Source: Mangrovicoccus sp. (GTDB lineage Bacteria > Pseudomonadota > Alphaproteobacteria > Rhodobacterales > Rhodobacteraceae). From it: a stretch of DNA of 64,000 nt. This document shows, piece after piece, positions 52,903 to 55,245 of the stretch; the stretch's first letter is position 1; each line of letters begins with the position of its first letter. The notes below the pieces were generated by a model that saw only the letters and a program-made list of their open reading frames with translations, was not told the DNA's origin and did no database searches. The DNA lies in NCBI GenBank assembly GCA_025800345.1, contig JAOXSB010000326.1:1-64000 (forward strand), read 5' to 3'. Made by a program: the position numbers and the translations under genes.

Positions 52903-53595
52903 ATGAAACGTTCCGAGATCAATCGCATCATGGAAGAGGCGGATGGGTTCATCCGCTCCTTTGGACATGTTTTGCCGCCCTTTGCTTATTGGAGCCCTGA
53001 TCAGATGCGCGCCCGGCAGGATCAAGCGCGGGGCATTATCGATGGGCGCTTGGGCTGGGATATCACCGATTATGGTGGCGGGGATTTTGCCGCTTTGGGG
53101 CTGTTTCTTTTCACCACCCGCAATGGCCGTTTGCAAGATCTGCGCCAGGGCGGAGGCATGTGCTATGCGGAAAAGATCATGATCTCGCGGCGCGATCAGA
53201 TCAGCCCGATGCATACCCATGTGATCAAAGTCGAAGACATCATCAATCGCGGTGGCGCGCGTTTGGCGGTGCAGCTTTATGGCTCCGACCCTCAGGGAGG
53301 CTTTGATGAAACTGCCGGGGGGCAGGTCTGGCGCGATGGGCGGGATTATCGCTTTGCCCCGGGCGAAGTGCTGCTGCTGGATCCGGGGGAAAGCGTCACG
53401 TTGCGGCCTGGCGACTGGCATAAGTTCTGGGGTGAAGGGGGGGATGTGCTCATTGGCGAGGTCTCCACGGTCAATGATGATCTCACGGATAATATCTTTC
53501 ACCCGCCCCTGGGCCGGTTCGCGCAAATCCAAGAGGATTGCGACCCGCGCCATTTGCTGGTGAGCGATTATCCAGTTTGGCTAAACGCGGGGTAA
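52903..53595 (+). CDS. D-lyxose ketol-isomerase family protein (cupin fold)
   Basis: This 230-residue protein matches the D-lyxose/D-mannose isomerase (YdaE) family, with the metal-binding cupin block SPMHTHVIKVEDIINRGG (two histidines and a glutamate), the second metal histidine in PGDWHKFWGEGG, and GGMCYAEKIMISRRDQ. It would interconvert D-lyxose with D-xylulose, or D-mannose with D-fructose. No sugar transporter or kinase gene is nearby, so the natural substrate is uncertain. Confidence 0.88.
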   Translation: MKRSEINRIMEEADGFIRSFGHVLPPFAYWSPDQMRARQDQARGIIDGRLGWDITDYGGGDFAALGLFLFTTRNGRLQDLRQGGGMCYAEKIMISRRDQISPMHTHVIKVEDIINRGGARLAVQLYGSDPQGGFDETAGGQVWRDGRDYRFAPGEVLLLDPGESVTLRPGDWHKFWGEGGDVLIGEVSTVNDDLTDNIFHPPLGRFAQIQEDCDPRHLLVSDYPVWLNAG

Positions 53596-53731: not shown

Positions 53732-53751
53732 GTATTCATTAATGTGAATAC
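53732..53751 (+). promoter_or_regulatory. Perfect palindrome matching the SqrR/BigR operator pattern
   Basis: GTATTCA (53732-53738) and TGAATAC (53745-53751) are perfect inverted arms around 6 bases. The inner bases read ATTC-N8-GAAT, which as I recall is the motif bound by the persulfide-responsive ArsR-family repressor SqrR of Rhodobacter. It is 8 bases before GGGAGG and 22 bases before the start of the metallo-hydrolase gene, so a bound protein could block transcription of it. Confidence 0.65.
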
Positions 53752-53773: not shown

Positions 53774-54736
53774 ATGACCAAAGCCATTCTTTGCGCTGCG
53801 TTTGGGGCGCTTAGCTGTTTTGCTGCGGGCGGGGGCGTTGCCAGCGAAGATATTGCGGATCAATATCCCCAAAGCCTGCTCTATTCCAAACCTGTGGAAG
53901 TCATCCCAGGTGTCTTCTCGGCCATCGGCGCCACTGCGCCGCCCACCTATGAAAATGCCGGGCATAATAACAATCTCAGTTTCATTCTCACGGATGCAGG
54001 TGTGGTCGTGGTCAATAGCGGGGCCAGCTATGGGTTGGCCGAAGCGGTTCATGAGGAAATCCGCGCCCAGACCGATGCCCCGGTGGTTCTGGTGATCAAT
54101 GAGAATGGCCAAGGCCATGCGATGCTGGGCAATTCTTATTGGGCCGCCCAAGGGGTGGAGATCCTCGCCCATGAGGATGCGGCCCATGAATTTGCCGAGC
54201 GCGGGGATTTTGCCCTGCAATCGGCGCGCAGCATTCAAAAGGAACGGGCGGAAAAAACCACGCTCGCGGCCCCGAGCCGCGTTTTTACCGGCCGCGAAGA
54301 GATTACGTTGGGCGGCACCCGTATCGAAGTGCTTGATCTTGGCCCGGCCCATAGCCCTGGTGATATTTCCGTCTGGTTGCCGGATCAGCGCTTGGTGATC
54401 GCCGGGGATTTGGCCTTTCACGAACGTATGCTGCCGATCTTTCCAGAAACCGATACCGATGCTTGGATTGAAACCTGGGATAGCGGTTTTGAACCTTTGG
54501 GCGCGCTTTATGTGATCCCGGGCCATGGTCATCCCACCAATATGGATCAGGTGCGGCGCTACACCCGCGATTATCTGGTGGATCTGCGCGGCAAAATCGC
54601 CGCCCATCTGGAAGAGGGTGGTGATTTGGTCAGTGCTGCTTATGTGGATCAAAGCGCGTGGCGCGGGCTGGATACATTCGATGAATTGGCCACGAAAAAT
54701 GCCGGGCGCGTCTTTGAAGAAATGGAATGGGAATAG
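53774..54736 (+). CDS. Exported metallo-beta-lactamase-fold hydrolase with degenerate first metal motif
   Basis: This 320-residue protein has a signal peptide at about 1-24 (AILCAAFGALSCFAAGGGVA) and an MBL-fold domain. The usual HxHxDH motif is replaced by N109-E-N-G-Q-G (VINENGQGHAMLGN, with H115 nearby). The second-site residues look intact: the histidine of LGPAHSPGD, the aspartate of IAGDLAFHER and the histidine of IPGHGHPT. It resembles periplasmic MBL proteins associated with quinoprotein or sulfur metabolism (SoxH-like). The start has GGAGG upstream. The palindrome before it suggests persulfide/sulfide regulation. Substrate unknown. Confidence 0.8.
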   Translation: MTKAILCAAFGALSCFAAGGGVASEDIADQYPQSLLYSKPVEVIPGVFSAIGATAPPTYENAGHNNNLSFILTDAGVVVVNSGASYGLAEAVHEEIRAQTDAPVVLVINENGQGHAMLGNSYWAAQGVEILAHEDAAHEFAERGDFALQSARSIQKERAEKTTLAAPSRVFTGREEITLGGTRIEVLDLGPAHSPGDISVWLPDQRLVIAGDLAFHERMLPIFPETDTDAWIETWDSGFEPLGALYVIPGHGHPTNMDQVRRYTRDYLVDLRGKIAAHLEEGGDLVSAAYVDQSAWRGLDTFDELATKNAGRVFEEMEWE

Positions 54737-54771: not shown

Positions 54772-55245
54772 ATGAATAAAGACAAAGTGACATCTTGGTT
54801 GAAATGGCTCGATTTGCCGCCGATTTGGCTCGCGGTGTTTTTGGCCCTGGCTTGGGTGCAAGCGCATCGGCTGCCGGTACCGCTGCCCGGCAATGGGATC
54901 ACCGATTTGCTCGGCGGGCTTTTGGTCGGGGGCGGCGTCGTGCTTATGGCGATGGCGGTGATGCAAATGCGCCAGGCCCGCACCACAGTGATTCCCCATC
55001 AAACGCCTCAAACATTGGTCGATGGCGGGATTTTCTCGCGCAGCCGAAACCCGATCTATTTGGGTGATGTGATGGTTTTGGCGGGGCTTATGCTGTTTTG
55101 GGAGGCCTGGCCCGCGCTGATCTTGGTGCCGTTATTTATCTGGCTGATCACAGATCGTTTTATTTTGCCCGAAGAGGAGCGCTTGCAAGAGACCTTTGGT
55201 TCGCGCTTTGATGCCTATGCGGCAAAGACGCGGAGATGGTTGTAA
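54772..55245 (+). CDS. Isoprenylcysteine carboxyl methyltransferase-like membrane protein
   Basis: From the ATG at 54772 this is a 157-residue membrane protein with four to five hydrophobic segments and the ICMT/PEMT-type signature RNPIYLGDVMVLAGLMLFW followed by EEERLQETFGSRFDAY. Bacterial members probably methylate small lipids or other acceptors. An earlier ATG at 54727 in the same frame would overlap the metallo-hydrolase stop and add 15 residues; neither start has a strong Shine-Dalgarno. Close spacing suggests co-transcription with the hydrolase. Confidence 0.75.
   Translation: MNKDKVTSWLKWLDLPPIWLAVFLALAWVQAHRLPVPLPGNGITDLLGGLLVGGGVVLMAMAVMQMRQARTTVIPHQTPQTLVDGGIFSRSRNPIYLGDVMVLAGLMLFWEAWPALILVPLFIWLITDRFILPEEERLQETFGSRFDAYAAKTRRWL

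Follow-up and report, generated by a model that had tools for sequence, protein, structure and literature searches.

The soxH locus

The window, the 64-kb stretch of DNA that was analysed, contained a perfect palindrome upstream of two plus-strand genes. The features considered were:

53732 to 53751, no strand: proposed SoxR operator, perfect inverted repeat GTATTCA-N6-TGAATAC (GTATTCATTAATGTGAATAC), assigned from its conserved sequence class and position and as the top match of a matrix trained on soxX promoters
53734 to 53749, no strand: core ATTC-N8-GAAT (ATTCATTAATGTGAAT), equal to the reported Rhodobacter capsulatus SqrR site (PMC9774250)
53760 to 53766, plus strand: likely soxH ribosome-binding site GGGAGGA, from sequence
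53774 to 54736, plus strand: soxH, exported MBL-fold protein of 320 aa (P0001), assigned from a 68% identical P. pantotrophus orthologue and a structure model; SoxH-related NCBIfam models scored below their cut-offs
54772 to 55245, plus strand: PEMT/ICMT-type integral-membrane methyltransferase of 157 aa (P0002; PF04191, PF04140)

Both 7-base arms, separated by TTAATG, were exactly inverted, and 22 bases lay between the palindrome and the soxH ATG at 53774, confirming the preliminary description and placing the repeat in a promoter-proximal position. A scan for sigma-70 promoters around the palindrome found nothing useful. Just upstream, at 52903-53595, was a D-lyxose/D-mannose isomerase-type gene (PF07385), apparently a separate unit.

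The ATTC-N8-GAAT core occurred once in the window, against 1.21 matches expected from window shuffles, and the window held 11 perfect inverted repeats with 7-base arms and a 6-base spacer. With roughly 1.2 core matches expected in a window at random and 11 similar palindromes present, the evidence from this single sequence was weak. The genome-wide count was discarded as sole evidence, since the 31 core matches in 3.38 Mb were uninformative, the majority lying within predicted genes.

Identification of the hydrolase as SoxH

A 68% identical orthologue was found on plasmid pPAN3 of P. pantotrophus as the final gene of the sox cluster. The gene order there, placed by tblastn as the record is unannotated in that region, was soxT-soxR-soxS-soxV-soxX-soxY-soxA-soxB-soxC-soxD-soxF-MBL1-MBL. 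The window hydrolase is identified as SoxH by this identity and by the position of its orthologue at the end of the cluster. We take the Paracoccus order to be soxEFGH and the first MBL gene of the tandem to be soxG. In Sulfitobacter, where some species have soxH outside the sox cluster, the soxF-soxH interval has been described (PMC11034169).

The N-terminus of the window protein resembled an export signal. An AlphaFold2 model (pLDDT 82) had an MBL fold, with best Foldseek matches to 8d2z (chlorothalonil dehalogenase) and 6uxu, followed by beta-lactamases such as CphA. The canonical binuclear MBL motif HxHxDH was absent, and E110-N-G-Q-G-H115 stood in its place. ENxQGH was invariant in all 81 SoxH sequences, and P. 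pantotrophus SoxH likewise has ENGQGH. The later motifs kept an invariant His, Asp and His; SoxG retained HxHxDH. From these motifs, the SoxH branch is possibly mono-metal or non-hydrolytic. To our knowledge, no clear role for SoxH has been established.

The preliminary description had suggested a sulfide/persulfide regulon to which the hydrolase and the following methyltransferase-like gene might belong. With the hydrolase identified as SoxH, the regulon would be that of thiosulfate and sulfane-sulfur oxidation; the methyltransferase is tied to it through the operon only.

Conservation of the palindrome at soxH operons

Eighty soxH orthologues were fetched, almost all from Rhodobacterales, and upstream regions were searched to a depth of 250 bases. 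An exact ATTC-N8-GAAT dyad stood at the operon head of 60 of the 80, and in none of 378 control windows drawn from the same loci. Of these 60 sites, 34 immediately preceded soxH itself and 26 stood ahead of soxG where the two genes formed a soxG-soxH tandem; where soxH had no site directly upstream, it was often the second of two MBL genes, with the site just before the first. The consensus resembled A(T/C/A)ATTCA...TGAAT(A/G/T)T. The 8-base spacer was found in 34 of 80 upstream regions, while every other spacer from 2 to 15 was found in 0-2. Twenty orthologues were without an exact site, several of them having near-misses.

A functionless chance palindrome would fit the core match expected in a window of this size and the 11 palindromes of like geometry here. 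Position, conservation (60/80 versus 0/378) and spacer specificity place the repeat above chance, and this explanation is close to negligible.

The same dyad at sox promoters

The palindrome was not confined to random sites in relatives, where it headed soxH operons and also marked soxX promoters. Among 29 Rhodobacterales sox clusters, taken as the regions fetched around soxR in relatives, 27 contained the exact dyad between soxV and soxX, beside soxR, usually as AAATTC-N8-GAATTT. Some clusters had a further dyad before soxB or soxC. An earlier indication that the motif was unrelated to the regulator came from 1.5-kb flanks, which lacked the soxX operators, and was overturned with 8-kb flanks.

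With a scoring matrix trained solely on 12 soxX sites, 51 of the 80 soxH operon heads scored above 14 bits, compared with 2 of the 376 controls. In the 64-kb window the matrix ranked the palindrome first at 18.4 bits, the next match scoring 12.5. No other single argument was as strong, since the matrix was trained and tested on different promoters.

The genome's own soxX promoter was without an exact dyad and carried GCATTCAAGAATAAAGATTT (ATTC-N8-AGAT), a degenerate form shared by the sister genome; the ATTC-N8-AGAT form also occurred at soxS-soxV of one relative. Limimaricola had no exact dyad at soxX or soxH. P. pantotrophus gave only weak or degenerate matches; the intergenic regions between soxS and soxV and before soxX held two of its three best. 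Motif strength therefore differs by lineage.

Dyads were also seen at other genes. In one genome (G016) a SulP-type permease gene and a gene for a DUF442-sulfide:quinone oxidoreductase (SQR) fusion each had an exact dyad upstream (L212 1229-1244 and 3031-3046). In three genomes a dyad lay in the divergent promoter of a 5-aminolevulinate synthase and an M20-type peptidase (L220 1249, L238 1216, L242 1277). SQR was rejected as a general target, the site being close upstream in only two of eight SQR fusions.

The candidate regulator

The genome search turned up one ArsR protein of the persulfide-sensor type, encoded on a contig other than that of the window (G000:C76:19476-19844) and the only SqrR/SoxR-type protein among five ArsR-family (PF01022) matches. 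Its best PDB matches were R. capsulatus SqrR structures (6o8l-6o8o, E 8e-36). SqrR has cysteines C9, C41 and C107 (PMC10044876); in the alignment both sensor cysteines, matching C41 and C107, were kept. The recognition helix was nearly that of R. capsulatus SqrR, with the segment RQAAVSQQLARLR conserved.

Contig C76 carried a complete sox cluster, soxR-soxS-soxV-soxXYA-soxBCD with a YeeE/soxT-like gene. The regulator was named SoxR because of the soxS-soxR-soxT order within this complete cluster. Its score against the NCBIfam BigR equivalog NF040642 was 95.1 bits, short of the cut-off of 155. Of the SqrR/BigR operator first proposed, the persulfide-sensor type of site is thus kept, with the sox-cluster SoxR as the likely protein. 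The soxV-soxS intergenic region of the same contig also contained a long inverted repeat, ATTACATAT-N10-ATATGTAAT (L025 3747-3780), unlike the N8 dyad.

A SoxR/SqrR-type protein was present in all 40 genomes tested first. Two genomes that bore the MBL gene and had no SoxR/SqrR-type match were also without the site, in a tiny sample that included one small and probably partial MAG. In the 80 hydrolase loci, tblastn listed no SoxR hit, and a profile search detected no SoxR/SqrR gene close to the hydrolase; the latter carries little weight because mis-oriented translations had entered the profile.

Many relatives encoded a second SqrR-type paralogue, which could bind the same site. The dyad might thus be an ArsR-family persulfide operator whose main occupant is a SqrR/BigR-type paralogue, with sulfide detoxification as the trigger instead of thiosulfate oxidation; exact dyads close upstream of the DUF442-SQR fusion gene in two genomes agree with this. 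The low share of SQR fusions with a site (two of eight) speaks against it, as do the single SqrR/SoxR-type match in this genome and in its sister (G002) and the absence of an exact dyad within 8 kb at 10 paralogue loci outside sox clusters, whereas the soxR loci have one. A paralogue as main occupant is accordingly judged quite unlikely.

Binding by SoxR is itself a prediction, and several families use short AT-rich dyads, so that a transcription factor of another family could control both the sox and soxH promoters. Since the motif equals the site deduced for R. capsulatus SqrR (in agreement with the preliminary description), adjoins soxR, and is matched by a SoxR with the SqrR recognition segment, a factor from another family is very improbable.

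The methyltransferase gene and two locus architectures

The operator occurred in two settings, detached soxH-PEMT pairs and soxG-soxH tandems inside sox clusters. In the first architecture the operator was directly upstream of soxH (34 loci); 24 of these had PEMT downstream and two had sox-type neighbours. In the second it preceded soxG-soxH (26 loci); none had PEMT and 21 had sox-type neighbours. The tandem-locus neighbours DUF302, 5-aminolevulinate synthase, YeeE and flavocytochrome matched the Sulfitobacter soxF-soxH interval (PMC11034169). Viewed from the methyltransferase, PEMT was downstream of soxH in 25 fetched loci; in 24 the operator immediately preceded soxH, and no operator-bearing soxG-soxH tandem was among the 25.

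Where soxH is detached, a PEMT/ICMT-type methyltransferase generally comes next and the operator is retained. In the window the methyltransferase gene is probably co-transcribed with soxH. MddA acts on thiols (PMC12904073), and the methyltransferase encoded in the window might do the same. A distinct SoxR-controlled Rhodobacterales module, in which the PEMT/ICMT-like enzyme would handle a sulfur compound (e.g., by S-methylation of sulfide or thiols) during the sulfane-sulfur response, is a speculative and on balance unlikely extension.

Proposed regulation

The palindrome is best explained as a SoxR operator through which SoxR would silence the detached soxH and the membrane methyltransferase gene as long as reduced sulfur is absent, a reading to which we assign a probability of roughly 0.83. 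From comparative sequence evidence we infer DNA binding, repression, persulfide release and co-transcription as follows. SoxR, an ArsR-family dimer encoded on the other contig, would bind the ATTC-N8-GAAT site, which lies shortly before the ribosome-binding site, and would block transcription of soxH and the following gene. Thiosulfate or sulfide would raise sulfane sulfur, which would bridge the two conserved cysteines of SoxR; the bridged protein would leave the DNA, and the detached operon would be induced along with soxXYZABCD. The SoxR of Hyphomicrobium is a repressor of sox genes whose response to sulfane sulfur goes through two cysteines (PMC10451225).

The analysis yields a precise candidate DNA motif for the sox regulon of Rhodobacterales, which takes the form AAATTC-N8-GAATTT at soxX; at soxG/soxH it is ATTC-N8-GAAT. 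On this reading, soxH outside the sox cluster would keep SoxR-type control and the membrane methyltransferase would join the candidate regulon. The regulation of SoxH and its altered metal-binding motif offer leads to its role.

Comparison with known systems

The proposed system resembles the SoxR operators of the Paracoccus, Pseudaminobacter and Hyphomicrobium sox clusters in its ArsR-family repressor, sox targets and promoter-proximal repeats. It differs in having a clean ATTC-N8-GAAT dyad, here a predicted site. In Paracoccus, SoxH is encoded in the sox cluster, whereas here soxH stands with a membrane methyltransferase gene on a contig other than that of the cluster.

R. capsulatus SqrR shares the core dyad and the same two cysteines, and is the closest regulator of solved structure; the regulator here differs in its soxS-soxR-soxT setting within a complete sox cluster. 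This SoxR is a sibling of SqrR. BigR/blh of Xylella and Agrobacterium and E. coli YgaV likewise involve ArsR persulfide sensors. The BigR system also has an MBL-fold target, Blh, a sulfur transferase/persulfide dioxygenase, but SoxH belongs to a different MBL branch and the regulator here falls below the BigR cut-off (95 against 155 bits). The mechanism of SoxR is already known, while its use at a separated soxH-methyltransferase pair appears to be undescribed.
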